A DNA stretch of 33,479 nucleotides. It comes from Stappia sp. MMSF_3263 (GTDB lineage Bacteria; Pseudomonadota; Alphaproteobacteria; Rhizobiales; Stappiaceae). The stretch spans positions 1 through 33,479 of the forward strand of contig NZ_JASHIK010000030.1 in NCBI RefSeq assembly GCF_030733745.1, given 5' to 3'. Of the stretch, positions 2,312 to 21,138 are shown one piece after another (the first letter of the stretch is position 1; every line of letters starts with the position of its first letter). The translations under genes were made by a program, and so were the position numbers. The notes beneath the pieces are model-generated. The model was not told the origin of the DNA and ran no database searches. It saw only the letters and a program-made list of their open reading frames with translations.

Positions 2312-5179
2312 CTACTCGGCCGCCTCGATGCGCCGCGACAGCGTGGAGAATTCCTCGTATTTCTCCTGCCAGTCGGTCGGGCCGTTCGAGGGCATGACCT
2401 GCACCGCGGTCACCTTGTATTCCGGACAGTTCGTCGCCCAGTCGGAATAGTCGGTGGTGATGACATTGGCCTGTGTCGTCGGGTGGTGGAAGGTCGTGTA
2501 GACGACGCCCGGCGACACCTTGTCGGTGATCTTCGTCCGCAATGCTGTCTCGCCGGACCGGCTGGCGAGCTTGATCCAGTCGCCGTCCTTGACGCCGCGC
2601 ACCTCCGCGTCATGCGGATGGATCTCCAGCAGGTCCTCCGCGTGCCACACCACATTGCCGGTGCGCCGGGTCTGTGCCCCGACATTGTATTGCGACAGGA
2701 TCCGGCCGGTGGTCAGCAGCAGCGGGAAGCGCGGCCCGGTCTTCTCGTCCGTCGCGATATAGTCGGTGCGGATGAACCGCCCCTTGCCGCGCACGAACTC
2801 GTCCACATGCATCACCGGCGAGCCGTCCGGGGTCTTGTCGTTGCAGGGCCACTGAACCGAGCCTTTCTCCTCCAGCAGCGCGTAGGAGACATTGGCGAAG
2901 CTCGGCGTCGTCGCCGCGATCTCGTCCATGATCTGCGAGGGATGGGTGTAGCTCCAGTTGCCGCCCATCGCGTTGGCGAGCATCTGGGTCACCTCCCAGT
3001 CGGCATAGCCGTTCCTCGGCGCCATCACCTTGCGGACCCGGTTGATCCGGCGTTCCGCGTTGGTGAAGGTCCCGTCCTTTTCCAGGAAGGTCGAGCCGGG
3101 CAGGAACACATGTGCGTAATTGGCCGTCTCGTTGAGGAAGAGGTCATGCACGATGACGCAGTCCATCGCCGCAAGGCCCGCCGACACGTGCTTGGTGTCC
3201 GGGTCGGATTGCAGGATGTCTTCGCCCTGGCAGTAGAGACCCTTGAAGGTGCCGTCGACCGCCGCGTCGAGCATGTTAGGGATCCGGAGCCCCGGTTCGT
3301 CGGAGATCGAAACGCCCCACATGCTCTCGAAGATGTCGCGCACCTCCTGCCCGTTGACATGGCGATACCCCGGCAACTCGTGCGGGAACGAGCCCATGTC
3401 GCAGGAGCCCTGCACGTTGTTCTGGCCGCGCAAGGGGTTCACGCCGACGCCCGGCCGGCCGATATTGCCGGTCAGCATGGCAAGGTTGGCAATGCCGATG
3501 ACGGTGGTCGAGCCCTGGCTGTGCTCGGTCACGCCAAGGCCGTAATAGATCGCGCCGTTGCCGCCCCTGGCATAGAGCCGCGCGGCCTCGCGCAGGTCCT
3601 GCGCGGGAACGCCGGTCAGGCTTTCCACCGCTTCCGGGCTGTGCTTTTCGTCCGAGACGAATTCCGCGTAGTCGGCGAACGCGTCCTGGTCGCAACGTTC
3701 GCGAATGAAGGCCTCGTCGAACAGCCCTTCCGTGACGATCACATGGGCAAGGGCCGTCACCACGGCGACATTGGTGCCCGGCCGCAAGGCCAGATGATGG
3801 GCCGCCTCCACATGCGGGGTCTTGACCAGGTCGATGCGGCGCGGATCGACGACGATCAGCTTCGCCCCCTGGCGCAAGCGCTTCTTCAGCCTCGAGGCGA
3901 AGACCGGATGCCCGTCGGTCGGGTTGGCGCCGATCACCACCACCACGTCGGTCTGTTCGACACTGTCGAAATCCTGCGTGCCGGCGGAGGTGCCAAAGGT
4001 CTGTCCGAGGCCGTAGCCGGTGGGCGAATGGCAGACCCGGGCGCAGGTGTCGGTGTTGTTGTTGCCGAACACCGCGCGGGTCAGCTTCTGCACCAGGTAA
4101 GTTTCCTCGTTGGTGCAACGCGAGGAGGTGATGACGCCGATGGCGTCCTTGCCCAGCTCATACTGGATGGCGCGTAGCCGCGTCGCCGCGAAGGACAGCG
4201 CCTCCTCCCAGGAGACCTCCCGCCAGGGATCGGTGATCTTCTCGCGGATCATCGGGTTGAGGATGCGGTCCTTGTGCGAGGCATAGCCATAGGCGAAGCG
4301 CCCCTTGACGCAGGAATGGCCGCGATTGGCCTTGCCGTCCTTGTAGGGCACCATCCGCACCAGCTCGTCGCCGCGCAGCTCCGCCTTGAACGAGCAGCCG
4401 ACGCCGCAATAGGCGCAGGTCGTCACCACCGACCGGTCGGGCGTGCCGATCTCGATCACCGACTTTTCCTGCAGGGTCGCCGTCGGGCAGGCCTGCACGC
4501 AGGCGCCGCAGGAGACGCATTCGGAAGCGAGGAAATCCTCGTGCATGCCGGCCGAGACCCGGCTGTCGAAGCCGCGCCCCTCGATGGTCAGCGCGAACGT
4601 GCCCTGCACTTCCTCGCAGGCCCTGACGCAGCGCGAGCAGACGATGCATTTCGCCGGGTCATAGGTGAAATAGGGGTTGCTTTCGTCCTTCGCCATCCAT
4701 TGCGGATTGGCCTCGCCCGAGGTGTTCTTCGCCCTGAAATGCGTGTCGACGGCCTCGTAGCGCACGTCGCGCAGGCCGACCGCGCCGGCCATGTCCTGCA
4801 ATTCGCAATCGCCATTGGCCGCACAGGTCAGGCAGTCGAGCGGATGGTCGGAGATATAGAGCTCCATCACCCCGCGCCGGAGGTCCTTCAGCCGGCCCGT
4901 CTGGGTGCGCACCACCATGCCCGGCTCCACCGGCGTGGTGCAGGAGGCGGGCGTCCCGCGCCGGCCCTCGATCTCGACGAGGCAAAGCCGGCAGGAGCCG
5001 AAGGCATCGACCATGTCGGTGGCGCAGAGCTTCGGGATCTTGATGCCCGCCTCCACCGACGCGCGCATCACCGACGTGCCTTGCGGAACGGTGACGTCGA
5101 AACCGTCGACCGTCAGGGTGACCATGGTCTCGGACGTTGCCGCCGGTGTGCCGAAATCGGTTTCCTTGATCAGGGTCAT
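2312..5179 (-). CDS. fdsA: NAD-dependent formate dehydrogenase catalytic alpha subunit FdsA
   Basis: 955 residues. Oxidises formate to CO2 at a bis-MGD molybdenum centre and passes electrons through Fe-S clusters to FdsB. Visible in order: a [2Fe-2S] ferredoxin-like domain (C52, C63, C66, C80); a NuoG-type cluster H112-C116-C119-C125; two ferredoxin [4Fe-4S] motifs (C178, C181, C184, C188 and C221, C224, C227, C231); a [4Fe-4S] motif at the start of the Mo domain (C255, C258, C262, C290); then the Mo-bis-MGD domain. The active-site block DTCARVCHSPT gives Mo ligand C383 and H384, and NPLRGQNN gives R584. These fit Rhodobacter capsulatus FdsA C386, H387 and R587 with a constant offset of 3. 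It is a Cys, not selenocysteine, enzyme. It starts 4 nt after the fdsB stop; the GGAG lies in the fdsB end. Confidence 0.98.
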   Translation of the reverse strand: MTLIKETDFGTPAATSETMVTLTVDGFDVTVPQGTSVMRASVEAGIKIPKLCATDMVDAFGSCRLCLVEIEGRRGTPASCTTPVEPGMVVRTQTGRLKDLRRGVMELYISDHPLDCLTCAANGDCELQDMAGAVGLRDVRYEAVDTHFRAKNTSGEANPQWMAKDESNPYFTYDPAKCIVCSRCVRACEEVQGTFALTIEGRGFDSRVSAGMHEDFLASECVSCGACVQACPTATLQEKSVIEIGTPDRSVVTTCAYCGVGCSFKAELRGDELVRMVPYKDGKANRGHSCVKGRFAYGYASHKDRILNPMIREKITDPWREVSWEEALSFAATRLRAIQYELGKDAIGVITSSRCTNEETYLVQKLTRAVFGNNNTDTCARVCHSPTGYGLGQTFGTSAGTQDFDSVEQTDVVVVIGANPTDGHPVFASRLKKRLRQGAKLIVVDPRRIDLVKTPHVEAAHHLALRPGTNVAVVTALAHVIVTEGLFDEAFIRERCDQDAFADYAEFVSDEKHSPEAVESLTGVPAQDLREAARLYARGGNGAIYYGLGVTEHSQGSTTVIGIANLAMLTGNIGRPGVGVNPLRGQNNVQGSCDMGSFPHELPGYRHVNGQEVRDIFESMWGVSISDEPGLRIPNMLDAAVDGTFKGLYCQGEDILQSDPDTKHVSAGLAAMDCVIVHDLFLNETANYAHVFLPGSTFLEKDGTFTNAERRINRVRKVMAPRNGYADWEVTQMLANAMGGNWSYTHPSQIMDEIAATTPSFANVSYALLEEKGSVQWPCNDKTPDGSPVMHVDEFVRGKGRFIRTDYIATDEKTGPRFPLLLTTGRILSQYNVGAQTRRTGNVVWHAEDLLEIHPHDAEVRGVKDGDWIKLASRSGETALRTKITDKVSPGVVYTTFHHPTTQANVITTDYSDWATNCPEYKVTAVQVMPSNGPTDWQEKYEEFSTLSRRIEAAE

Positions 5180-7289: not shown

Positions 7290-8198
7290 CTATAGATGAG
7301 CAACGGACTCCAATTTTTTACTTGCCGAAACCTGCCGCGCCAGACGCAGCAGCGCCGCGATCAGCGGTGCATGCGGCTCGCGCCGGGTTGTCACCAGACC
7401 GACCATCGTGCCGACATCGGGTTCGGTGACCGGGATGATCCGCAGCGTTTCGCTTGCAAACGTCTCCGCAAGGCTCTGCGGCACGATCGTCGCCCAGCGC
7501 CCGCTGCGCACATGTGCCATCAGGGCCACGATCGAATCCGACTCCAGTGTCGGCGTCACGTCGGCATTCATCTCGGCGAGCATGCTGTCGACGATGCGGC
7601 GGTTTTGCATGCCCCGTGTCAGCAGGCAGAGCGGCACACGGCCGACCTCGCGCCAGGTGACCCGTTTTCGCTCGCTCAGTGGCGCGCCGCGCGTTGTCAC
7701 CAGACAATGGCTTTCCCGGTAAAGCGGGACCTGGACGACCCGGCCGACGGGTTCGTTTCCAAGATACGTGACGCCGGCATCTATCTCGAGATTCTCCAGC
7801 AGCGACAGGATGTCTGCGGAAGACCGTGACAGGATGGAATAGCGCACTCCCGGATTCTGCTCGGCGAACGGCATCGTCAGTTTCGGGACATAGGACAGCG
7901 CCGTGGGGATCGCGGCGATGCGCAAGTGACCGCTGAGGCCGTCACGCACCGTCTTGATCTCCTGTTGCATTGTCCGCACGTCGGCGACCAGCCGCCGCGC
8001 CCAGTCCAGCACCCGCTGGCCCTCCGGCGTCAGGCCCTGATAGCGCGAGCCGCGCAGCACCAGCAGCACGCCGAGTTGCTCCTCGAGCTGCTTGACGGCC
8101 GCCGACAGGGTCGGCTGGGTCACCCCGCACTCCTCCGCCGCCCGGCCGAAATGCCGCTCGCGGGCAAGCGCCATGAACATTTCCAGCTTGTCGATCAC
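7290..8198 (-). CDS. LysR-family regulator next to the fds operon
   Basis: 302 residues from a GTG start at 8198, preceded by GGAGG with 6-nt spacing. A longer frame from 8312 lacks such a site and would add 38 residues before the usual LysR start. Winged HTH at residues 1-60 (DKLEMFMALARERHFGRAAEE, TQPTLSAAVKQLEEQLG), linker helix, then a two-lobed effector domain with IAAIPTALSYVPKL and the C-terminal block GRWATIVPQSLA. It is transcribed in the same direction as fdsG, 91 bp upstream. By position it probably controls fdsGBA in response to formate or a related acid (an FdsR role), but the ligand cannot be read from the sequence. It lies 85 bp downstream of the carrier gene, from which a GC-rich hairpin separates it. 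Confidence 0.9.
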   Translation of the reverse strand: MIDKLEMFMALARERHFGRAAEECGVTQPTLSAAVKQLEEQLGVLLVLRGSRYQGLTPEGQRVLDWARRLVADVRTMQQEIKTVRDGLSGHLRIAAIPTALSYVPKLTMPFAEQNPGVRYSILSRSSADILSLLENLEIDAGVTYLGNEPVGRVVQVPLYRESHCLVTTRGAPLSERKRVTWREVGRVPLCLLTRGMQNRRIVDSMLAEMNADVTPTLESDSIVALMAHVRSGRWATIVPQSLAETFASETLRIIPVTEPDVGTMVGLVTTRREPHAPLIAALLRLARQVSASKKLESVAHL

Positions 8199-8237
8199 GA
8201 CCGGCCTCCGCACTGCATGGCCGTTTCCGGCCAGACA

Positions 8238-8283: not shown

Positions 8284-9999
8284 TCAGGCTTTCGCCGGTT
8301 CCGCCCCCTCAATGGACTCCATGTGATGTTTATCGGCCACCGGCCGCACCATCGCGTTCGCCACCAGGGCGATCACCAGCAGGGCCGCCATGGCATACAT
8401 GGTGGTGTTGTAGAGGCTGGGCGTCGGATCGACGGTCCCCGGGGGCGCGATCTCCATCAGTTGCGCCACCGTCACCGTCTTGGCCGCGACAAGCTGGTCG
8501 AGCTGGTCGACGCCCGCGCCGAACTTCTCGGCGAAGGTTGCCGGATCGATCTTGGATGCAAGATCCGAGATCGCGTTGGTCAGCGACATGTTGCGCAACT
8601 GCGTGATGGCGAGCGGGCCCAGCACGCCGGCGGTGCTCCAGGCGGTCAGCAGGCGTCCGTGGATGCCGCCGACATACTTGGTGCCGAAAATGTCCGCCAG
8701 ATAGGCCGGGATCGTCGCGAAGCCGCCGCCATACATCGTGAAGATGATCATGGTGGCCGCATAGAACATGACCAGCCATGTCACCGCCGGGTTCACGCTG
8801 ACCTGCGCCGCCGCGAAGGGAATGGACAGATACAGGATGATGCCCAGGACGAAGAAGCAGTGATAGGTGTTCTTGCGCCCGATATAGTCCGACGTCGACG
8901 CCCAGAAGAACCGGCCGACCATGTTGAAGACCGAGATCATGAACACATAGGTCGCCGCGAAGGCGGAGTTCACGATCATCGGCAGGGTCGTTCCGAAAAT
9001 CTCCGACATCATGGTCTTGGCGACACCGATCACGCCGATGCCCGCCGTCACGTTGAAGCACAGCACGATCCACAACAGGTAGAATTGCGGCGTCTTCAGC
9101 GCCTGGTCGATATGGACGTTGTTCTGGGTGATCATCTTGCGCGAGGCGGCATCGGCGCTCGGCGGCGTCCAGCCGGCCGGGAGCCAGCCTTCACGCGGCA
9201 CCCGGTAGGAGAAGGCGGCGATGATCATCACGAAGAAATAGACGATGCCGAGCGTGAAGAACGTGCCCGCCGCTCCGGTGTTTCCCGTGCCCACCACATA
9301 GATGCCTTCCTGCAGCGGGACCGGAGCGGCCGCCACCTGCTTCGCCCCGGCGATCACCACCTCGACCAGTTGGCCGTTCACCTCGGCCATCCGCTTGCCG
9401 CCCTCGGTGACAAGCTCGACGGCTCCTTGCGGGCCCAGATAGTCGGGCGCCTTGTAGAACAGGCCGAGCAGGTATTCCTTGATCGGCGTCGCGATCATGG
9501 CGCCGCCGCCAAAGCCCATGATGGCCATGCCCGTCGCCATGCCGCGCCGATCCGGGAACCAGCGGATCAGCGTCGACACGGGCGAGACATAGCCAAGGCC
9601 GAGGCCGCATCCGCCAAGCACGCCATAGCCGAGATAGAGAAGCCACAGCTGGTGCGTCATGATGCCGACGCCGCCGATGATGAAGCCGCCGCCCCAGCAC
9701 ATCGCGGCGACCACGCCCACCATGCGCGGCCCGACCTCTTCCAGCCACTTGCCGGCAAAGGCCGCGGCCAGACCGAGAAACACGATGGATACGGAGAAGA
9801 TCCAGACCACGGACGACAGGCTCCAGTCGCCGGGCGCCGCGGCAACCACGCCGAACTGCTTGATCAGCGGCGGATTGAAGATGCTCCATGCATAGACGGA
9901 GCCGATGCACAGATGGATGGCGATCGACGCCGGCGGAACCTTCCAGCGGTTGAACCCGTCCTCTGCGACGATGTGTTGTTTCTTCAGCCTGTCAAACAT
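8284..9999 (-). CDS. OFA-family MFS transporter (oxalate/formate type), long form
   Basis: 571 residues from ATG 9999, with GGAGGAG 9 nt upstream. A major facilitator carrier with about 12 membrane segments. IHLCIGSVYAWSIFNPPL in TM1 and the loop WFPDRRGMATGMA are typical of the oxalate:formate antiporter (OFA) family. It is well over 100 residues longer than classic OxlT. The extra length is two inserts of about 60 residues, at about 183-244 (between TM5 and TM6) and 471-531 (between TM11 and TM12). These are equivalent places in the two halves and both predicted periplasmic. Flanking formate dehydrogenase genes suggest that formate, oxalate or another small carboxylate is carried; lactate- and pyruvate-type substrates also occur in the family. 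An NtrC-type kinase/regulator pair lies upstream, and its own 5' region has a sigma-54 promoter, so it is probably induced by that pair. Confidence 0.9.
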   Translation of the reverse strand: MFDRLKKQHIVAEDGFNRWKVPPASIAIHLCIGSVYAWSIFNPPLIKQFGVVAAAPGDWSLSSVVWIFSVSIVFLGLAAAFAGKWLEEVGPRMVGVVAAMCWGGGFIIGGVGIMTHQLWLLYLGYGVLGGCGLGLGYVSPVSTLIRWFPDRRGMATGMAIMGFGGGAMIATPIKEYLLGLFYKAPDYLGPQGAVELVTEGGKRMAEVNGQLVEVVIAGAKQVAAAPVPLQEGIYVVGTGNTGAAGTFFTLGIVYFFVMIIAAFSYRVPREGWLPAGWTPPSADAASRKMITQNNVHIDQALKTPQFYLLWIVLCFNVTAGIGVIGVAKTMMSEIFGTTLPMIVNSAFAATYVFMISVFNMVGRFFWASTSDYIGRKNTYHCFFVLGIILYLSIPFAAAQVSVNPAVTWLVMFYAATMIIFTMYGGGFATIPAYLADIFGTKYVGGIHGRLLTAWSTAGVLGPLAITQLRNMSLTNAISDLASKIDPATFAEKFGAGVDQLDQLVAAKTVTVAQLMEIAPPGTVDPTPSLYNTTMYAMAALLVIALVANAMVRPVADKHHMESIEGAEPAKA

Positions 10000-10359: not shown

Positions 10360-12415
10360 TCAGGCCTCCAGTGGCGAGATCTCCGGCGGGGAGGTCTCCG
10401 GTGGGGAGGTCTCCGGCAGCCAGATCGTGAAGATGGTGCCTGTTCCCGGTGTGCTGTCGACACGGATGTCCCCGCCCTGCCGGCTGACCAGCGTCTGCGT
10501 GATCGACAGGCCGAGGCCCGTGCCCTGCCGGCTCTTGGTCGTGTAGAATGGGTCGAAGACCCGCTCCAGCACCTGCGCGCTCATGCCAACGCCCGTGTCG
10601 GCGACCTCGACGGTCACACCTTCGGTGCCGTCCCGGGTCGTGTCGCGCGTCTTCAGCGACAGGACGCCGCCTTTCGGCATCGCGTGCACCGCATTGACGA
10701 TCAGGTTGATCAGCACCTGCTGCAGCTCCGTCCGGTTCATCAGCACCGTGCGGCGGGCCAGCGGCTCGCGCCGGACCTCGATCTCGGTCTTGCGCAGCAG
10801 ATGGCGCACCAGCGGCAGGCAGTCGGAAATGACCTCGTCGGGTGCGTGGCGGTCGGCATAACCGGCATACTCGTCCGGCTTGGCGAATTGCAGCAGCTTC
10901 ATCACGATCTGGTTGATCCTGTGCACCTGCTCGTCGATCAGCCGGATCTCCGTGCCCGCGACCTCGGCCCGTTCTCCAAGAAGCATCCGGAGCACTTCCA
11001 GGTTCCCTTGAATGACGGCGATCGGATTGTTGATCTCGTGGGCGACGCCTGCGGTGATCTCGCCGATGGCCGCCAGCTTCTCCGACATGATCAGCTGCTT
11101 GGTGGTTTCCTCGAGCTGCCTGTTGGCCTGCATCAGGTCGCGCGTTCGCTCCTCGACACGGTCGTTCAACTCCTCGTTCCAGGATCGCAACTGCCGGTCG
11201 CTCTCCTGAACCAGGTCGAGCAGGTGGTCGAGATGCTGCGCCACGCGGGCGATTTCGTCGCTCTCGCCATTGGAGCGGGTGCGGGCGCCAAGGTCGCCGC
11301 GTTCCACCCGCGCGATCGTGTCCGTCATCCGCTCCAGCGGCTTGAAGACGCCCCGCGCCCAGCGCAGGAACATCGGCACGCTGCCGGCGGTGACGACCAC
11401 GAAGCCGAACAGGACGGCAATGAGCGTCGCCAGCTTTTCTTCCTGGAACGGCGTTTCCAGAAAGCCGACATAGAGCATGCCGACCCGCTCGCCGCGGCTG
11501 TCGACGATCGGCTCGTAGGCGGAGATGTACCAGTCGTTGACCACGAAGGCGCTGTCGAGCCAGACCTGCCCCTGCCCCAGGACCCGCTCGCGCACCGCCG
11601 CCGAAACCCGCGTGCCGAGCGCCCGGCGATCCTCGAAGAGACGCACATTGGTGCTGACGCGCACATCCTCCAGGAAGAGCGTCGCCGTTCCCTGGCTGCC
11701 CTCCGGAAGGCTCGCCTCGCGGTAGACCAGGTCATTGATCGTGTCGATGAACACCAGGTTCTGGTTGAGCAATATCCCCCCGACAAGGGCGGCCGAGGAA
11801 CTGCCGGGCATCATCACCGGGCTTGCCGAATGCACGATCATGCCCCTTGTCTCGGTGGTGCGCGCGCTCGGCACCGCGTTCGGCGTCGGAATAAGGTCAA
11901 GGCTCGCGCGCGCCGCCAGGTCCGGCGAGATGCCGGCAAGGTCCTCGCCCTCGAAAATGTCGACGCTGGTCGCCGGTTCCCCGTTCATCGCCTTGGCGAT
12001 CACCGGCCAGTCGCGGCCGGGCGGCGGCCGGGCGCCGGCGGGCGAGGCAGCCCGCACCGCGCCCTGTCCGCTTACGAGATAGAGGAAGTCGAGGCCCAGC
12101 GCCTCCCGGCGGCGCTCCAGCAGGGCGGCCAGTTCGCCGCTGTCCCGGCTTGCCAGGATATCGCGAAACTCCGCCGACTGGCCGAGCGCGTCGATCCGCT
12201 CGCCGGAATTCTCCAGGATCCGCGTGAAATACTGATGGGCGATGGTCAGGTCGCCATTGACCTTGGATTTCAGCAGGGAATCGAATTTCGAGTTCCAGCG
12301 CACCATCGCCCAGCCGAGGAACAATGGCAGCACGACCAGCGTCGGCAGCAGCGCGATGGCGAGCAGCCGGACCCGGACGGAGAGACGGCTGCGGTGGGCC
12401 GACGCCCCCTTGGCC

Positions 12416-12423: not shown

Positions 12424-13819
<1,396 letters not shown>

Positions 13820-13849
13820 GAGCTCCCCCCGGCTTTTGCTGTCGTTTTA

Positions 13850-13862
13850 TGTCTATTTGTCC
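13850..13862. promoter_or_regulatory. Possible autoregulatory site of the NtrC-type regulator
   Basis: TGTCTATTTGTCC matches the proximal carrier site GGTCAATTTGTCC at 11 of 13 positions and keeps the TTTGTCC half intact; the other half is degenerate. It lies 31-43 bp upstream of the regulator ATG, within the probable promoter or leader. Confidence 0.4.
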
Positions 13863-13941
13863 CCAGGGATAGCACAGCCCGACGCCCGACATAACGCCCC
13901 GGAGCGAATTCCGCCCGTCCTTATGCCTCTTGCGTGGTGTT

Positions 13942-13958
13942 TTGTTATACTATAACAA
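13942..13958. promoter_or_regulatory. Zur-like operator overlapping the promoter of the riboswitch operon
   Basis: TTGTTATACTATAACAA is a perfect 8-1-8 palindrome. Its inner 15 bases match the core TGTTATANTATAACA of the Zur consensus established in gammaproteobacteria; the alphaproteobacterial consensus I remember differs somewhat, so the assignment is not certain. It contains TATACT and TATAAC, which resemble -10 boxes, so a bound repressor would block the promoter. It lies 123 bp before the riboswitch. Alternatives: another Fur-family protein or a GntR-type regulator, or control of the divergent regulator gene. Confidence 0.55.
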
Positions 13959-14080
13959 TCATGCCGCTTCGCAGCCAGCCGCCCGGCCCCGGCCGGACCC
14001 CGTTGCAACCGGTGGATCTTCCGATGCCCTCTCGCCTTTATGTTGACGCCCGCCCGGCCGGCAACTATCCCTTGTCATCA

Positions 14081-14247
14081 CGTGCTGGTGGCCCGGATTT
14101 CAGGTCTGGGCTGAAAAGGGAACGCGGTTCAAACCCGCGGCTGCCCCCGCAACTGTGAGCGGCGAGCGACCGGTCGATGGCCACTGGAGAGATCCGGGAA
14201 GGCGACCACGTCGTGACGACCCGCGAGCCAGGAGACCTGCCTGCACG
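14081..14247 (+). promoter_or_regulatory. Cobalamin (AdoCbl-type) riboswitch
   Basis: Contains the conserved core GGGAAC (14118-14123), the GCGGCTGCCCCCGCAACTGTGA block (about 14136-14157) and the B12 box GAGCCAGGAGACCTGCC (14225-14241), in the right order. The closing helix pairs CGTGC (14081-14085) with GCACG (14243-14247). It lies in the leader of the plus-strand methyltransferase/ABC operon and should lower its expression when cobalamin is plentiful. Confidence 0.95.
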
Positions 14248-14374
14248 TTTGTTCTCGGTCCGGGCGGGGTGCACCGGAGCGCTTGGTGCGCCCGTTCCAG
14301 CCGATCGTGCGTGCTTCGCGTGTCTGCGCTCTCCCTTCCGGCCCTGCCGATGCACCGGATGCGTGGATGAGCGA

Positions 14375-15184
14375 ATGACGATTGCGACAAGGTTTCCCGT
14401 TGAGGCCGACAGGACGAATTTCTCCGTCAAGGACGAGATTCGCGACTACTGGACAACCCGCTCCGAGACCTTCGATCTCTCCTTCGGGCACAAGATCCGC
14501 ACCGATGCGGAGCTGCTCGCCTGGGCGTCCCTGTTTCGCCGTCACGGGCGGATCGCCGACGGCGCGAAGGTGCTGGAGCTCGCCTCCGGCACCGGCGAGA
14601 TCACCCGCGTGCTGGCGCGTCTCGGCTGCGACATCGACGCCATTGATCTTTGCGAGGCGATGATCGAGCGGGCCCGGCGCAAGCACCCCGAAACCCGCGT
14701 GCGTTTTCATCTCGGCGATGCCGAGAACACCATGATGGCCGACAACGCCTATGACGCCGTTGTCTGCCGGCACCTGGTGTGGACGCTGGTCGACCCCGCC
14801 GCCGCCTTCGCCGACTGGTGGCGCGTGCTGAAGCCCGGCGGCCGGCTCGTCATCGCCGATGGAGACTGGGTCTCGACCACGGCCCTCTCCCGTCTTCTCA
14901 TGACCCTGTCGCGGAAGCTCGACCCCCTTCGGGGCAACCGCCCCCTGTGGGACCAGGCGGCGCACGAGCGGATCATGGCGCAGGTTCACTTCCGTGAGGG
15001 CCTTAAGGCCCGCGAGCTTCACCTGATGCTGGCCGATGCGGGCTTCACCGACATCCAGGCCGACACGCTCTCGCAGGTGCGCCGCCGCCAGTGGCAAGCC
15101 GCGAACTGGAGCGAGCGCCTGCGCCTTGCCGCAACCTATGGCGGCCGCACCTTCCTGCTGTCCGCCACCAAACCCGCAGCCTGA
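14375..15184 (+). CDS. Class I SAM-dependent methyltransferase under riboswitch control
   Basis: 269 residues from ATG 14375. The frame is open further upstream, but an earlier start would lie in the riboswitch. The Rossmann SAM-binding fold shows motif I LELASGTGE (67-75), acidic D91 at the end of beta-2 in IDAIDLCEAM, motif II DAENTMMADNAYDAVVCRH (115-133) and post-motif WRVLKPGGRLVIADGDW (149-165). This is the Methyltransf_11/UbiE-like small-molecule type. The N-terminal segment IRDYWTTRSETFDLSFGHK is distinctive. The substrate is unknown. First gene of a cobalamin-riboswitch operon with a DMT carrier and a nickel/peptide-type ABC importer, so it may modify a metal ligand; it does not resemble nicotianamine synthase or known corrin methyltransferases (CobA, CobI, CobJ, CobM types). 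Confidence 0.9.
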   Translation: MTIATRFPVEADRTNFSVKDEIRDYWTTRSETFDLSFGHKIRTDAELLAWASLFRRHGRIADGAKVLELASGTGEITRVLARLGCDIDAIDLCEAMIERARRKHPETRVRFHLGDAENTMMADNAYDAVVCRHLVWTLVDPAAAFADWWRVLKPGGRLVIADGDWVSTTALSRLLMTLSRKLDPLRGNRPLWDQAAHERIMAQVHFREGLKARELHLMLADAGFTDIQADTLSQVRRRQWQAANWSERLRLAATYGGRTFLLSATKPAA

Positions 15185-15212
15185 AGCCCGCTGCCTGCCC
15201 CCCCAGAACCGG

Positions 15213-16169
15213 ATGCCTTCCCGCATGACACACCCCTCTCTCGCGGAGCCCGCGCCCGCCAGCGACAACCCCGCCGCCGGCATCGCACTCCGGCTGGCCG
15301 CAACGGGCCTCTTCGCCAGCATGTCGCTGTGTGTCCGCCTCGCCTCCTTCGAGGCGCCGGTCGGGCAGATCGTGTTCTGGCGCAGCGCCGTCGCGCTGGT
15401 GCCGATCGTCATCTACCTGGTGATCATCGGCCGGTTTCCGGCAGCCCTTGCGACCCGCAATCCGCTCGGGCATCTGCGCCGCAGCGCCTTCGGCTGCGCC
15501 GCCATGTTCTTCTCCTTCCTGTGCCTCGCCTATCTGCCGCTGGCGCTCGCCACCGCCCTCGGCTTCCTGGCTCCGCTGGTCGCCATTCCCTTCGCCATGT
15601 TCTTCCTGAAGGAGCGACCGGACCCGCTGGTGATCGGCGCCGCCGGCCTCGGGTTCGCCGGCATCGGGCTGATGCTGGCACCCGCCTTCAACGGGCCGGA
15701 GCCCGACCTCTCGACGCTTCTGGGCGTCGCCGCCGGGCTTGCCTGCGCCATCACCACCGCCTCGGCGAAGGTCGAGATCAAGCGGCTGACGGCGAGCGAA
15801 CCGGCGGGCACCATCGCCTTCTACTTCGCGCTGGTCTGTGCCCTTGCCGGCCTTGCCACGGCGCCCTTCGGCTGGAGCGATGCCCACGGAACAACGCTCC
15901 TGTGGCTCGTCGGCGCGGGCCTGTGCGGCGGCCTTGCCCACATCGCCATGACGGAGGCCGTCGCCCGCGCTCCCGTCTCCACCCTCGCCCCGTTCGAATA
16001 CACCGCGATGATCTGGGCAATGGGCTTCGATCTTGCCGTCTTCGCCCTTGTTCCCGCCCCCCTCAGCCTTGTCGGCGCGGTGGTCGTGGTCGCGGCCGCG
16101 GCCCTCGTCGCCTTCGCTCCCAGGTTGAGATTTTTCCGCAATTCCGCAGCGCAAAGGATGACACCATGA
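15213..16169 (+). CDS. EamA/DMT-family transporter
   Basis: 318 residues from ATG 15213 (a second in-frame ATG at 15225 is possible; neither has a strong ribosome site). About ten membrane segments in two EamA repeats. The first repeat has LASFEAPVGQIVFWRSAVALVPIV and LPLALATALGFLAPLVAIPFAMFFLKERP; the second has GLAHIAMTEAVARAPVSTLAPFEYTAMIWAMGFD. Such drug/metabolite transporters export amino-acid-like compounds. In opine metallophore (cnt) clusters a DMT protein, CntI, exports the metallophore next to a Nik-type ABC importer, so a similar role is a reasonable hypothesis here. The gap after the methyltransferase is 28 nt, and its stop overlaps the next start as ATGA. Confidence 0.9.
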   Translation: MPSRMTHPSLAEPAPASDNPAAGIALRLAATGLFASMSLCVRLASFEAPVGQIVFWRSAVALVPIVIYLVIIGRFPAALATRNPLGHLRRSAFGCAAMFFSFLCLAYLPLALATALGFLAPLVAIPFAMFFLKERPDPLVIGAAGLGFAGIGLMLAPAFNGPEPDLSTLLGVAAGLACAITTASAKVEIKRLTASEPAGTIAFYFALVCALAGLATAPFGWSDAHGTTLLWLVGAGLCGGLAHIAMTEAVARAPVSTLAPFEYTAMIWAMGFDLAVFALVPAPLSLVGAVVVVAAAALVAFAPRLRFFRNSAAQRMTP

Positions 16170-17728
16170 GCCTTGCACATCTCTCCCGCCGACATCTTCT
16201 GGCCGGCTCGGCGCTTCTGGCGGGCGCAGCCGCCCTGCCCTCGCGCCTTGCCACGGCGGCGGCCGGCGGCCCGCAGCTCCGCATCGCCCAGCCCTGGGAG
16301 ATCCGCTCCACCAATCTTGCCAATTCCGGTTATTCCTTCACCAGGCCCGGCATCGTCGAAACCCTCATGGCGGTGGACGAGCAGGGACGCCTGGAAGCCG
16401 CGCTGGCGGAAAGCTGGTCGGTCAACGAGGACGCGACGCGCTGGCGGCTCGGCATCCGCGGCGATCTCGTCTTTCACGACGGCACGCCGTGCACCGCGCG
16501 CGAGGTCGCAGAGAGCCTCGAGCGCCTGATCGGGGAAACGCTCTATCTCCAGCGTGCCGGCATCGCCGCGATCGATGTCGAGGGCAATGATCTCGTCTTC
16601 TCGCTGGACGAACCGTTCGGCCCGTTCCTGTCCTATCTCGTCGACAATTCCGCCGCCATCGTCGCGCACTCGTCCTTCTCCGCCTCCGGCGCGATCGAGC
16701 GGCCCGTCGGCACCGGCCCTTTCCGTCTTGACGAGCTGGAACTTCCCCATGCCATGCGGCTGGTGCGTCACGATGCCTGGCGCGGCGGCATGGGCACGGT
16801 GGAGACGGTGCAATACGACGCCGTCCCCAATGGCGAAACGCGCGGCAACATCGCCATCGCCGGCGACAGCGATCTGGTCTTCAACATCCCCGCCCCGAGC
16901 ATTCGCCGTGTCGAGGCAACCGGCCTGATGACGATCGACCGGCCGGTCGTCCCGCGCGTTCACACCCTGATGCTGAACTGCGCCAAGCCGCAATTTTCCG
17001 ACAAGCGTTGCCGCCAGGCCATCAACATGGCCCTCGACCGGCAGGCGATCGCCACCGGCATCATGCGCAACCCGGCGCTCGCCGCCACCCAGTACATGCC
17101 GCCGGTCCTCGCCAACTGGCATTTCGATGACATCGCCCCGCACGCGAAGGACGTTGCGGCCGCCAACGCGCTGCTTGACGAAGCCGGCTGGGAACGCGGC
17201 GCGGACGGCATCCGAATGAAGGACGGCGTCCGCTTCTCCGGCGAAATCCTGACCTTCGCCAACCGGCCCGAGCTTCCGGTCATCGCCACGGCCATGCAGG
17301 CGCAGTTCCGCGAGATCGGCTACGACCTGGCCATCGGCGTCGGCGAATGGACGGCAATCTTCGAGGCGCAGCGCGACGGCAGCCTTGACATGGGTCTGAC
17401 CTCCCGCAACCTGGCGATCGTCCCGGATCCGATCGGGACGGTCGCCGCCGATTTCGCCAGCGACACGATCCCGCCGGGTGCGGCCGGAACCACGGGCTGG
17501 AAGAACGAGGAACTGCGCACCCTTGTCGCGCGCTACCTGCGGGAAGCCGACGCGGAACGCCAGGCCGAGCTGCGCCGAGGCATCATCGGCATCATTCACG
17601 AGGAGGTGCCCCTGATCCCGGTCGTCTGGTACGACCAGATCATCGCCATCAACAAGCGCCTGTCCGGCTTTCGCGGTGATCCGTTCGAGCTGCGTTTCAA
17701 CCTGCAAGACGTGTCCCTGTCGGGATGA
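16166..17728 (+). CDS. Tat-exported peptide/nickel-type (SBP family 5) binding protein
   Basis: 520 residues from ATG 16166 with AAGGA 9 nt upstream. The N-terminus SRRHLLAGSALLAGAAAL is a twin-arginine signal with a cleavage region near ATAAAGG, so the protein is exported folded. The mature part is an SBP_bac_5 (DppA/NikA/CntA-like) protein: ESWSVNEDATRWRLGIRGDLVFHDGTPCTAREV, RPVGTGPFRLDEL, KRCRQAINMALDRQAIATGI and a C-terminal EEVPLIPVVWYDQI are family landmarks. It binds the ligand for the permeases encoded next. Dpp, opine-metal and nickel-chelate binders all belong to this family; the riboswitch and Zur-like operator upstream favour a metal or metal chelate over peptides. Overlaps both neighbours by 4 nt. 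Confidence 0.92.
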   Translation: MSLAHLSRRHLLAGSALLAGAAALPSRLATAAAGGPQLRIAQPWEIRSTNLANSGYSFTRPGIVETLMAVDEQGRLEAALAESWSVNEDATRWRLGIRGDLVFHDGTPCTAREVAESLERLIGETLYLQRAGIAAIDVEGNDLVFSLDEPFGPFLSYLVDNSAAIVAHSSFSASGAIERPVGTGPFRLDELELPHAMRLVRHDAWRGGMGTVETVQYDAVPNGETRGNIAIAGDSDLVFNIPAPSIRRVEATGLMTIDRPVVPRVHTLMLNCAKPQFSDKRCRQAINMALDRQAIATGIMRNPALAATQYMPPVLANWHFDDIAPHAKDVAAANALLDEAGWERGADGIRMKDGVRFSGEILTFANRPELPVIATAMQAQFREIGYDLAIGVGEWTAIFEAQRDGSLDMGLTSRNLAIVPDPIGTVAADFASDTIPPGAAGTTGWKNEELRTLVARYLREADAERQAELRRGIIGIIHEEVPLIPVVWYDQIIAINKRLSGFRGDPFELRFNLQDVSLSG

Positions 17729-18678
17729 TGCAGCTCGCCCGGATCATCGGCGCCCGCCTCGCGCAGGCGGTCGCCGTCGCCCTCGTCCTGGCGACGCTGT
17801 GCTTTGCCTTCGTTCAGACCCTGCCCGGCGACCTCGCCCTCAGCGTCGCCGCCGCGCGCACGGGCCAGGACCGGCTGACCCCGGAACTGACGGAGCGCAT
17901 CCGCCGCGAGGAAGGGCTCGACCGACCGCTGCCCGAGCAATATGCGGGCTGGATCGGCCGGCTCGCCAGCGGCGACCTTGGCGTCTCGATGGTCAGCGGC
18001 AGGCCGGTGATCGAGGAACTGGCGACCCATGCCCGGCTGACACTTGTGCTCGGACTGACCGGCTGGCTGCTCTCCTATCTGGTCGCCATCCCGCTGGGTC
18101 TGGCCGCCGGCAGGCGTCCCGGCGGCTGGCTCGACCGCGTCACCCAGGGACTGGCGGTGCTGCTCGCCTCGACGCCGGCCTTCCTTGTCGGCGTGCTGCT
18201 GATCTCGCTGTTCGCGCTCTGGCTTCGCTGGCTGCCCCCGGCCGGCTACCGTTCGACCGCCCACATGGTGCTGCCCGCCCTGACGCTTGCCCTTGGCCTT
18301 GCCGCCTATTCCGTGCGGGTCGTGCGCAACGCCGTGGTCGACGTCCACTCCGCCTTCTTCATGACCTATGCGGAGATCCGCGGCCTGCCGCCCGGCACGG
18401 CATTCCGGCGCCATGGTTTGCGCAATGCCGCCATCCCGGTCGTCACCTTCATGGCGCTGCAGATGGCCTACATGATTGACGGTTTCGTCGTCGTCGAGAC
18501 GCTGTTCGGCTTTCCTGGCCTCGGCAACCTGCTGATCCGCTCGCTGCTCGCCCGCGACATTCCGATGATCATGGGCGCCGGCCTGCTGATCGGCCTGGTC
18601 TACGCCCTTGCCAACCTTGCGGCGGACCTTGCCTGCTACCGGCTCGACCCGCGCCTGCGACGGATGGGCAGCGCATGA
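17725..18678 (+). CDS. ABC permease, DppB/NikB type
   Basis: 317 residues; ATG 17725 overlaps the binding-protein stop (ATGATG, so 17728 is an alternative start). The first permease of the peptide/nickel ABC family. N-terminal TM1 followed by FVQTLPGDLAL and EEGLDRPLPEQYAGWIGRLASGDLGVSMVSGRPV, then five more membrane segments. The cytoplasmic EAA-like loop is YAEIRGLPPGTAFRRHGLRNAAIP, followed by the GFPGLGNLLIRSLLARDIPM block typical of DppB. Complete, with no frame problem. It pairs with the frameshifted DppC-type permease downstream. Confidence 0.93.
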   Translation: MMQLARIIGARLAQAVAVALVLATLCFAFVQTLPGDLALSVAAARTGQDRLTPELTERIRREEGLDRPLPEQYAGWIGRLASGDLGVSMVSGRPVIEELATHARLTLVLGLTGWLLSYLVAIPLGLAAGRRPGGWLDRVTQGLAVLLASTPAFLVGVLLISLFALWLRWLPPAGYRSTAHMVLPALTLALGLAAYSVRVVRNAVVDVHSAFFMTYAEIRGLPPGTAFRRHGLRNAAIPVVTFMALQMAYMIDGFVVVETLFGFPGLGNLLIRSLLARDIPMIMGAGLLIGLVYALANLAADLACYRLDPRLRRMGSA

Positions 18679-19501
18679 ACATTTCCGATCTCGCCCGCCC
18701 GCACCGTCGGCACCCGCCATACGGCCTTGTCGCCGGCCTGACGCTTGCCGGCCTCCTTGCCGTATCGAGCCTTGCCCCCTTCTGGCTCCCCCTGCCGGAC
18801 CCGAACCGGCAGGACCTGATGGCGGTGCTGGCGCCGCCGGGAGCCGGCCATCTGCTCGGCACGGATCACCTTGGCCGCGACATCCTCTCCCGCGTTCTTC
18901 ACGGCGCCCCGCGCTCGCTCGGCATCGCCCTTGCCTGTGTCGCCTCGACGGCGGTTCTGGGCGTGCTGCTCGGTCTCGCGGCCGGTTCTCCGACACTCTC
19001 ATCATGCGCCTCGCCGACCTCGTCCTTGCCTTTCCCGGCCTGTTGCTGGCCCTGCTGCTGGCCGGGCTCACCGGCGGCGGCCTGCTGCCCATGGCGATCG
19101 GCATCCAGATTGCCCTGTGGCCGCTCTTTGCCCGCATGGCGCGCGCCAACGCGCGCGTCGCCTTGCAGGAAACCCATGTCGAGGCCGCCCGGCTCGCCGG
19201 CTTCTCGTCAGGGCACATCCTGCGTCATCACTTGTTGCCGCCCGTGCTGCGCCAGACCGTCTCGCTTGCCGCGCTCGGCGTCGGCTCCGCGATCCTGACG
19301 ATTTCCTCGCTGGGTTTTCTCGGCCTTGGCCTGGAGCCGCCCACACCTGAATGGGGCGCGATGATCGGCGAACTGCTCCCCTATGCGCCGGAAGCGCCGG
19401 TGCAGATCCTGGCGCCCTGCCTTGCCATCGTCGCAAGCGTCTTCGCCTTCACCCTTGTCGGCAAAAGCATCGCCGCGCGTCTCGCAGGAGGACAGGAATG
19501 A
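18675..19501 (+). pseudogene. ABC permease, DppC/NikC type, with frameshift
   Basis: Starts at ATG 18675 (ATGA overlap with the previous gene). The first ~103 residues are normal for DppC: APPGAGHLLGTDHLGRDILSRVLHGAPRSL, then GVLLGLAAG. At about 18978-18986 homology moves to another frame, where it continues as GRFSDTLIMRLADLVLAFPG, the EAA loop ETHVEAARLAGFSSGHILRHHLLP and SSLGFLGLGLEPPTPEWG, ending at 19501. Family members have a few more residues between LAAG and the aspartate of DTLIMR, so a deletion of 3n+1 nt (about 10-13) is the simplest explanation, possibly between GCGGCCGG-type repeats. If real, the product would stop early (207 residues, wrong sequence after ~103) and the importer would be dead; the ATPase start overlaps the end of this gene. 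An assembly error is equally possible. Confidence 0.8.
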
Positions 19502-20994
19502 CCACGCACGCCTTCTCGCTCGATCGGCTTGAAGTTCTCGACCGGTCCGGAACGCCGCTTGTGAGCATCGGCCCGCTGGCGTTGCGGCCCGGAGAGATCC
19601 TCTGCGTCATCGGCGAGACCGGCTCCGGCAAGAGCCTGCTTGCCCAGGCGGCCATGGGCCTGCTGCCGCAGGAGCTTCACGCACGCGGCACGTTTCGCTT
19701 CGCCCACGGCAAGGCAGTCGATGCGCGGGACCGCCAGGCTCTTCGCACACTTTGGGACCGGGAAACCTGCATCGTGCCGCAGGAGCCGGCGGCCGCCCTC
19801 GATCCGCTTGCCCGCATCGCCCGGCAACTTGTCGACCCCGATGACGGATCGAAGGCCGCCGACTTGCTCGCCCGGGTCGACCTCCCGGCCGCGACCGGCG
19901 GCCTCTATCCTTTCGAGGTCTCCGGCGGCATGGCGCAGCGCGTCCTGATCGCCAACGCCGCCGCCAGTCCGGCCGGGCTCGTGATCGCCGACGAGCCGAC
20001 CAAGGGCCTCGACACCCATCGCATCGCCCGGGTCACCGGCCTTCTCCGCCAGCTCAACGACGAGGGAAAGACACTTCTCGTCATCACCCATGATCTTGCC
20101 GTTGTTCGCGCGCTCGCCGGCCGCGTCGCGATCATGAAGGACGGGGAGATTGTCGAGACGGGCGAGACGGACGAGGTCCTGTCGCGGCCACGGCATCCCT
20201 ATTCGCGCGCATGGCTCGCCGCCGATCCCCGCAACTGGCCGGCCTGCCCGACCTGCCTTGCCTCCGACGACGTCGTGCTCGCGGCACACGGCCTCAGCGC
20301 GGCGCATCACCCCGCCCGCCCCCTTTTCCGCGATCTCGACCTGCATGTGCATCGCGGCGAGGTGCTGGCCGTCACCGGCCCCAGCGGCGTCGGCAAGAGC
20401 ACGCTCGGCAACGTGTTGCTTGGCTTGTTACCGCCACTGCACGGTGAGGTATCATGGCGCGGTTGCGACATCCTGAGGGATCGCGGCGGATTGCGGCGGC
20501 TGCGGCGCCGCTTCCAGAAGCTACACCAGGATCCGGCCACGGTCTTCGCGCCGCATCGCGGCATCGGCGCCCAGCTGCGCGATGTCCTCGCCCTTTCGGC
20601 CGCCCGCCCGGACATGGAGGCCCTTCGACCGGTTCTCGAGCGCCTGCATCTCTCCCCGGCCCTGCTTCACCGCCGCATCGGCGAGGTATCGGGCGGCGAG
20701 GCGCAGCGGCTGGCGCTGGCCCGCCTGCTGATGCTCGACCCCTGGCTGATCGTCGCCGACGAGCCGACATCCCGGCTCGATCCGATCGTTCAGCGCGAGA
20801 CGATGATGCTGTTGCGCGACTGCGTCGCCGAACGCGGCTTGTCGCTGGTTCTGGTCAGCCACAACGCCGAGCTGGTCCGGGCGGTCGCCGACACTGTTCT
20901 GCACCTGGACGGGGTGACGCCGGGCCGGCAGGAACCGGTCGCGGCCTGCCGGCAGCCGCTGCAACTTGACGCTCCGCTGGAGGCGGTCGGTTAG
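19498..20994 (+). CDS. Fused two-domain ABC ATPase, DppD-DppF/NikD-NikE type
   Basis: 498 residues from ATG 19498 (ATGA overlap; GCAGGAGG upstream). Two complete nucleotide-binding domains in one chain. The first has Walker A GETGSGKS (39-46), signature VSGGMAQR (141-148), Walker B LVIADEP (161-167) and the switch His in ITHD. The second has Walker A GPSGVGKS (294-301), signature VSGGEAQR (397-404), Walker B LIVADEP (417-423) and SHN. The oligopeptide-type linker RPRHPYSRAWLAADP follows the first domain; the cysteine pair CPTC (250-253) lies in the linker. It powers import by the binding protein and permeases encoded upstream. Fusion of the D and F subunits is common in nickel/peptide systems. 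Last gene of the riboswitch operon. Confidence 0.93.
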   Translation: MTTHAFSLDRLEVLDRSGTPLVSIGPLALRPGEILCVIGETGSGKSLLAQAAMGLLPQELHARGTFRFAHGKAVDARDRQALRTLWDRETCIVPQEPAAALDPLARIARQLVDPDDGSKAADLLARVDLPAATGGLYPFEVSGGMAQRVLIANAAASPAGLVIADEPTKGLDTHRIARVTGLLRQLNDEGKTLLVITHDLAVVRALAGRVAIMKDGEIVETGETDEVLSRPRHPYSRAWLAADPRNWPACPTCLASDDVVLAAHGLSAAHHPARPLFRDLDLHVHRGEVLAVTGPSGVGKSTLGNVLLGLLPPLHGEVSWRGCDILRDRGGLRRLRRRFQKLHQDPATVFAPHRGIGAQLRDVLALSAARPDMEALRPVLERLHLSPALLHRRIGEVSGGEAQRLALARLLMLDPWLIVADEPTSRLDPIVQRETMMLLRDCVAERGLSLVLVSHNAELVRAVADTVLHLDGVTPGRQEPVAACRQPLQLDAPLEAVG

Positions 20995-21002
20995 ACAAAA
21001 AT

Positions 21003-21061
21003 GCGACAATTTCGATAAATTACGCTGCAATTTGACGCAGTTTTTTGTTCGAAATTGTCGC
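21003..21061. repeat. 12-bp perfect inverted repeat in an AT-rich patch
   Basis: GCGACAATTTCG (21003-21014) and CGAAATTGTCGC (21050-21061) pair perfectly; flanking A-T and G-T pairs extend the stem to about 16 bp. The 35-nt interior has a small CTGC/GCAG hairpin (21025-21040) followed by six T (21041-21046). It begins 9 nt after the ABC operon stop and is clearly AT-richer than its surroundings. Part of the interior, CGCTGCAATTTGACGC (21023-21038), is a one-mismatch copy of CGCTGCAACTTGACGC in the 3' end of the ATPase gene. A transcription terminator or 3'-end element is likely; a mobile remnant is possible. Confidence 0.6.
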
Positions 21062-21138
21062 GTTTGCACAAGTCTGCCGGAACGATTCCGTCGTTTCAGG
21101 CACCGCTCCGGCACTCCGGCTGCTGCGCGGGACAGCCC

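Follow-up and report, generated by a model that had tools for sequence, protein, structure and literature searches.

An operon of Stappia sp. MMSF_3263 was analysed that carries signals for both zinc and vitamin B12 control. Cells readily mistake cobalt for zinc and zinc for cobalt, which makes it of interest how bacteria keep the uptake of one metal from bringing in the other. The window, i.e. the whole stretch of DNA analysed, comprises 33,479 nucleotides (contig NZ_JASHIK010000030.1; G000:C23:1-33479, where G, C and L numbers stand for genomes, contigs and loci) from an assembly of 50 contigs that total 5,024,014 bases. Here a palindrome with the core of a Zur site and a cobalamin riboswitch precede genes for a methyltransferase, an EamA carrier and a Nik/Opp-type ABC importer. 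The initial annotation had named zinc and B12 as inputs of this operon. Both elements are present, and they recur together at related importers; this double control is a wider pattern, which that annotation had missed.

Genes of the operon

The features of the locus are listed in Table 1. The content of the six coupled genes was as first described, and from the carrier gene onward neighbouring stops and starts overlap or almost touch. The start codon of the methyltransferase gene was picked by alignment with relatives (alignment A1, with L021 excluded because of a stop codon). A twin-arginine motif was read by eye in the binding protein. What had gone unnoticed is that the NikC gene is broken: two of its conserved motifs lie 164 nt apart in the window as against 177 nt in 5/5 relatives (13 nt shorter), and its halves fall in different frames, with no single open frame. 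Either a genuine deletion or an error of assembly would give this sequence.

Table 1. Control elements and genes of the operon, with coordinates in the window
Feature	Coordinates	Strand	Evidence or remark
Zur-like operator, perfect palindrome TGTTATA-C-TATAACA	13943..13957		exact Zur core and matrix score 29.0
Cobalamin riboswitch aptamer	14069..14258	+	RF00174, 133 bits vs gathering score 31.5
Class I S-adenosylmethionine-dependent methyltransferase, 269 aa	14375..15184	+	PF08241, 83.4 bits; AlphaFold pLDDT (predicted local distance difference test) 87
EamA/DMT carrier, 314 aa	15225..16169	+	PF00892
SBP_bac_5 (Nik/Opp-type) binding protein, 520 aa	16166..17728	+	PF00496, 220 bits
NikB-type permease, 316 aa	17728..18678	+	PF00528 and PF19300
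NikC-type permease, frameshifted near 18990	18675..19501	+	two pieces match NikC models separately
Fused double ABC ATPase (NikDE-type), 498 aa	19498..20994	+	PF00005, two stretches
Inverted repeat 3' of last operon gene, 17-nt arms, 94%	20999..21065		possibly terminator

The importer subunits are of the SBP_bac_5 and BPD_transp_1 kind and not of the FecBCD type (PF01497/PF01032). The top family models are Nik/Opp, as would be expected of an ordinary nickel or peptide importer. The scores, however, fall far under the nickel equivalog cut-offs (NikA models 231.9 vs 600 and 170.6 vs 393 bits; NikB 220.8 vs 447). Certain E. coli NikA residues, which we take to be the nickel-ligand contacts, are not kept in phmmer alignments with E. 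coli NikA chains as judged by eye, and the control signals are of zinc type and B12. An ordinary nickel or peptide importer is thus very improbable.

A Zur-like palindrome ahead of a cobalamin riboswitch

The palindrome announced by the initial annotation, TGTTATACTATAACA at 13943-13957, has arms (13942-13949 and 13951-13958) that are 100% complementary. When the whole 5.02-Mb genome was scanned, it was the only match without mismatch to the 15-bp Zur core, for which about 0.0003 matches per genome are expected from base composition. When as many as 3 mismatches were allowed, 21 sites in the genome matched the backwards control and 15 the Zur motif, so only near-perfect matches to the core are meaningful; the 3-mismatch matches were set aside, and a chance origin of the palindrome was rejected on the single exact match. 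With a position weight matrix trained on eight boxes from loci of this comparison, each at a zur, cobW or znu gene, the palindrome was also the sole site in the window scoring at least 15. Together with the comparisons below, the sequence argues that this is a Zur-like operator. The genome also holds a candidate for the Zur homologue that the initial annotation required, a Fur-family gene (C25:6591, 32.7 bits) beside zinc-importer-like genes and Zur-like boxes.

A gap of 107 bp separates the box from the riboswitch, which matches RF00174 over its full length (model positions 1-189 of 189). It is predicted to place expression of the operon under B12 control.

Two other regions of the same genome were noted. 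The surroundings of the Fur-family gene (L077, G000:C25:1-20000) form a second zinc/B12 neighbourhood, in which the Fur-family and zinc-importer-like genes, with Zur-like boxes at 8855 and 10029, are followed by DUF4198 and CobW genes, a riboswitch (12091-12308), DUF1636 and FecBCD-type genes. At L079 (G000:C3:56000-68000) a CbtA cobalt-transporter gene (PF09490, 7584-8285) lies behind another of the genome's cobalamin riboswitches.

The same pair of elements at the probable S. meliloti cobalt importer locus

The pair was found again on the pSymB-type replicon of S. meliloti, where a riboswitch is followed by genes for a binding protein, a permease, an ATPase and a methyltransferase. The methyltransferase next to the importer (L118 and L282) is of the same family as that of the window, with 46% identity. 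The cobalt importer CbtJKL is encoded on pSymB and has a BtuF-like binding protein and an adenosylcobalamin riboswitch (PMC7689651, available text). Replicon, gene order and riboswitch agree, so the S. meliloti locus is very probably cbtJKL, an assignment made by these features and not by locus tag. In both strains compared, the replicon carries one further cobalamin riboswitch, which makes two in all; that of RCAM1115 stands ahead of an annotated cobalt transporter gene and has no Zur-like box.

Zur-like boxes were seen before the cbtJKL-methyltransferase riboswitch in S. meliloti RCAM1115 and SM11 (107 bp in both, scores 25.0 and 25.0), S. kummerowiae (92 bp, 30.3) and Sinorhizobium sp. K101 (50 bp, 26.9 with 27.3). 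The letters of the box vary between Sinorhizobium species and still fit the matrix. No riboswitch and no box were found in the stretches taken from S. chiapasense (L279) and from E. adhaerens (L281).

Co-occurrence of Zur-like boxes and cobalamin riboswitches

Riboswitches were located in 41 genomes; 100 of them, from 25 genomes, and the four of the Stappia genome were taken for counting (104 from 26 genomes). A box scoring at least 18 lies within 300 bp of 13/104 riboswitches. All 13 are among the 42 with importer-type genes downstream, vs none of the 62 without such genes, where importer-type means a tblastn match at 1e-6 within 1.8 kb, DUF1636 and methyltransferase included, a loose definition that lets in a few weak ATPase and binding-protein matches. 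Under random placement and with kinship ignored, the hypergeometric chance of this distribution is 2e-6; by eye, the 13 represent about eight separate contexts. Eight shuffle rounds gave 0 or 1 box-bearing riboswitches and the backwards matrix gave none. When the span was widened to 600 bp upstream and 1200 bp downstream, a box was found at 15/104 riboswitches. At L012 a box of 24.2 is followed by riboswitch, FecBCD genes and methyltransferase gene, with a CobW gene divergent.

These counts bear on whether the operon could be a cobalt/B12 system only, its Zur-like box being unused or serving the divergent gene at 13819. The box is nearer to the start of that divergent reading frame (124 bp), which it could also serve, than to the methyltransferase start (418 bp), and many methyltransferase loci have the riboswitch and no Zur-like box (L005-L010, L119, L170). 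Against this stand the identical spacing of box and riboswitch in S. meliloti and the finding that 13/13 boxes near riboswitches are at importer-type operons. A cobalt/B12 system without zinc control appears quite unlikely.

A plasmid locus of S. medicae (L121) was considered and dropped. It has two divergent riboswitches (4125-4736), one of them ahead of DUF1636, a different methyltransferase, Nik genes and an EamA carrier gene; this methyltransferase has no match to the window family, and no Zur-like box accompanies its riboswitches.

Zur-like boxes at related Nik/Opp importers

Scans at a matrix cut-off of 18 were carried out on 34 importer loci, all with relatives of the binding protein: the window, 30 loci from genomes and three from plasmids. 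From one list of 24 entries, those in G003:C49, G002, G011, G000:C3, G010, G015, G036 and G043 were left out; all 17 non-window entries of another list were taken. In 26/34 a site of at least 18 lies no more than 600 bp from the gene for the binding protein, whose start is an estimate in many loci. With sites at the operon head in the window, L142 and L143 the number becomes 29/34, or 27/32 without L142 and L143, whose boxes were in the training set. The background, 375 kb of 22 other loci, gave no site of at least 18 and two of at least 15. Several of the importer loci adjoin zinc-starvation genes (Fur-family, COG0523 GTPases, a hisI paralogue, znuA-like, aztABC, DUF1826), and in 15/34 an EamA carrier gene is adjacent.

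The initial annotation would have given up its reading if orthologous operons lacked a Zur-like site. Such a lack is not the rule among these loci; it does hold for the nearest ortholog, L141 (methyltransferase 65%, carrier 68% and NikB 66% identical). Upstream of the methyltransferase of L141, at 7918-8232, the match to CobW covers just 49 residues (92% identical), as if the gene were truncated. Importer operons that have Zur-like boxes or riboswitches, of the Nik type as well as the FecBCD type, also contain DUF1636, a family of uncharacterised function (L139, L142, L143, L121, L178, L183, L214, L240, L265, L270, L272).

That most of the boxed loci have no riboswitch nearby, that zinc genes are their neighbours and that P. 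denitrificans offers a precedent are all consistent with a zinc importer only. The operon would then be another Zur-controlled Nik-type importer, whose riboswitch was acquired together with the methyltransferase or restrains import for a purpose other than cobalt. However, a riboswitch lies directly before the Nik binding-protein gene in G056 and G073, and 1-1.7 kb before it in G402, G349, G277 and G449. The methyltransferase is, moreover, common to riboswitch-controlled operons of cbtJKL type. We consider a purely zinc-directed importer unlikely.

The methyltransferase family is linked to chelate importers

The methyltransferase is of the Methyltransf_11 type. In its predicted structure the nearest PDB entries, among the best 50 of 1978 fold matches, were phosphoethanolamine, teleocidin, mitomycin and other small-molecule methyltransferases. 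It may make or modify the ligand, as the initial annotation proposed; it does not look like a nicotianamine synthase (NAS) or CntL. The protein has no match to PF03059 and no NAS is among those 50 fold matches, and identity with CntL/NAS was rejected.

The family was followed in 36 loci: the window, L118, L119, L123, L141, L170, 18/20 loci of one search and 12 strong matches outside the Stappia genome. L023 and L024 (weak matches) and L121 (37 loci scanned) were dropped; 8/30 listed methyltransferase matches and 3/30 listed matches of the binding protein were opened. A chelate importer is close by in 36/36, of FecBCD type in 34 and of Nik type in two (window, L141). L141 and L170 had been found through other operon genes and the window was the starting point; FecBCD genes are present at 33/33 loci found through the methyltransferase alone. 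In 11/36 a riboswitch precedes the linked importer operon (window, L005-L010, L012, L118, L119, L170); at L119 the methyltransferase itself is on the opposite strand. L084 has a riboswitch before its neighbouring Nik operon. The recurring zinc-plus-B12 control marks this unassigned family as a likely metallophore enzyme. Thirteen further genomes of the same genus as the window gave no strong match, which points to a patchy distribution of the operon.

Two further features of these loci were noted. Pseudoazurin, a blue copper protein, is encoded between FecBCD and methyltransferase genes in L005-L009 (about 8537-8986), L119 (9774-10205) and L170 (12265-12690); in these riboswitch-controlled operons it might serve as electron donor to the metal chelate. 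A chrB-a RNA (RF03078) is located at L020:10537-10627, near a methyltransferase locus of Paracoccus sp. S-4012.

Proposed mechanism

The operon may encode an importer for chelates of cobalt and/or zinc, along with an exporter for the ligand and an enzyme that modifies it, switched on when zinc and B12 are both short. We give this reading an even chance of being correct. The Nik/Opp-type ABC importer would take in the metal bound to a small ligand and the EamA carrier would export the free ligand. The methyltransferase would tailor the ligand, or would methylate it after import and so lead to metal release. With ample zinc, Zur would block a single promoter ahead of the riboswitch; with ample B12, the riboswitch in the leader would block expression. 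Acting in series, the two would form an AND gate, so that expression requires zinc and B12 to be low at the same time, and a broad-range chelate importer would be kept off in zinc-replete cells. Such an operon would work by analogy like a metallophore system, and it is not assigned to the opine family.

Several observations weigh against this mechanism. At the locus itself, no sigma-70-type promoter was recognised in a scan of 13830-14400, and the region 14259-14420, considered for an expression platform, forms no more stable a fold than shuffled sequence does (z -0.32). With a second permease that seems to be broken, this isolate may lack a functional importer. The nearest ortholog L141 has no riboswitch, and its weak box (13.5) places it among the five of 34 importer loci that fail the Zur test at the cut-off of 18, with L121, L148 (a site of 21.0 at a distance of 1.6 kb), L156 and L157. 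A riboswitch before the linked importer was not found in 25/36 methyltransferase loci, and L005-L010, the box-less riboswitch loci mentioned above, belong to Ensifer/Rhizobium. The co-occurrence counts come from 26 genomes all chosen for holding relatives of these genes, with sister species counted apart. The EamA carrier alone was rejected as a marker of such systems: among nine plasmid loci it is beside a FecBCD importer in three (L170, L174, L177) and not in L169, L171, L172, L173, L175 and L176, although a general ABC importer is present at L171, and siderophore-type genes occur several kb off at L176. Finally, in G056 and G073 the box lies between the riboswitch and the Nik binding-protein gene (in G056 boxes are on both sides), so a serial gate is not general; since the elements do not always come in one order, lineages may have different gates.

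A broader proposal is put forward tentatively, as possible rather than probable. Rhizobiales may have brought importers of cobalt-type chelates from both the FecBCD and the Nik/Opp family, which are unrelated ABC families, under zinc/B12 coincidence control by a Zur operator and a cobalamin riboswitch, either because the ligand carries both metals or because cobalt replaces zinc. The linked methyltransferase would then mark an undescribed, non-opine Co/Zn metallophore pathway that includes S. meliloti cbtJKL.

Comparison with known systems

The initial annotation had suggested an undescribed system. The combination of a cobalamin riboswitch with a Zur box was not found in the literature searched, in which most subscription papers and curated regulon databases were not covered. 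The single controls, in contrast, are already published: that of Nik-type importers by Zur, and that of cobalt and Nik-family importers by B12.

In P. denitrificans, pden1338-1344 comprise a COG0523 gene, two hypothetical genes and a Nik/dipeptide ABC importer, and are up more than 8-fold in zinc-depleted medium; direct Zur regulation is discussed there as somewhat unusual (PMC5387054). Matched by gene order and not by sequence, this system resembles that of the window, where Zur control is predicted, in placing a Nik-type importer under Zur; unlike in the window, no riboswitch, methyltransferase or EamA carrier is named in the available part of that source. A B12 riboswitch is reported ahead of NikABCDE-family systems in Clostridium tetani and in Desulfitobacterium hafniense (PMC2667541). 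They share with the window a Nik-type importer and this riboswitch and differ in that the accessible part of the paper names no Zur site, methyltransferase or carrier. In S. fredii, genes under Zur control show a response to cobalt in addition to zinc, according to the portion of PMC7029138 at hand; the two metals therefore seem close for these cells.

Opine-type zincophore (cnt) clusters combine an Opp or FecCD importer with an EamA exporter, some with extra methyltransferases (PMC7438024, in part). The chelator-type parts recognised by the initial annotation are thus of the kind found in such clusters, and the operon shares with them the EamA exporter and the Opp-type importer (PF00892, PF00496, PF00528, PF00005). 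It differs from the clusters as described there in having no NAS/CntL, in agreement with the original remark that nicotianamine synthase is missing. PF03059 was matched in 0/30 genomes, with a control match in Methanosarcina acetivorans; the opine dehydrogenase CntM (PF10100) also gave 0/30, but its controls gave no match either.

CbtJKL is like the window in its cobalamin riboswitch, in the Zur-like box 107 bp ahead and in the same-family methyltransferase (L118, L282). It is unlike it in having FecBCD-type subunits and no EamA carrier in the operon. The recurring zinc-plus-B12 control very probably includes this experimentally studied S. meliloti cobalt importer, and is testable in laboratory strains.

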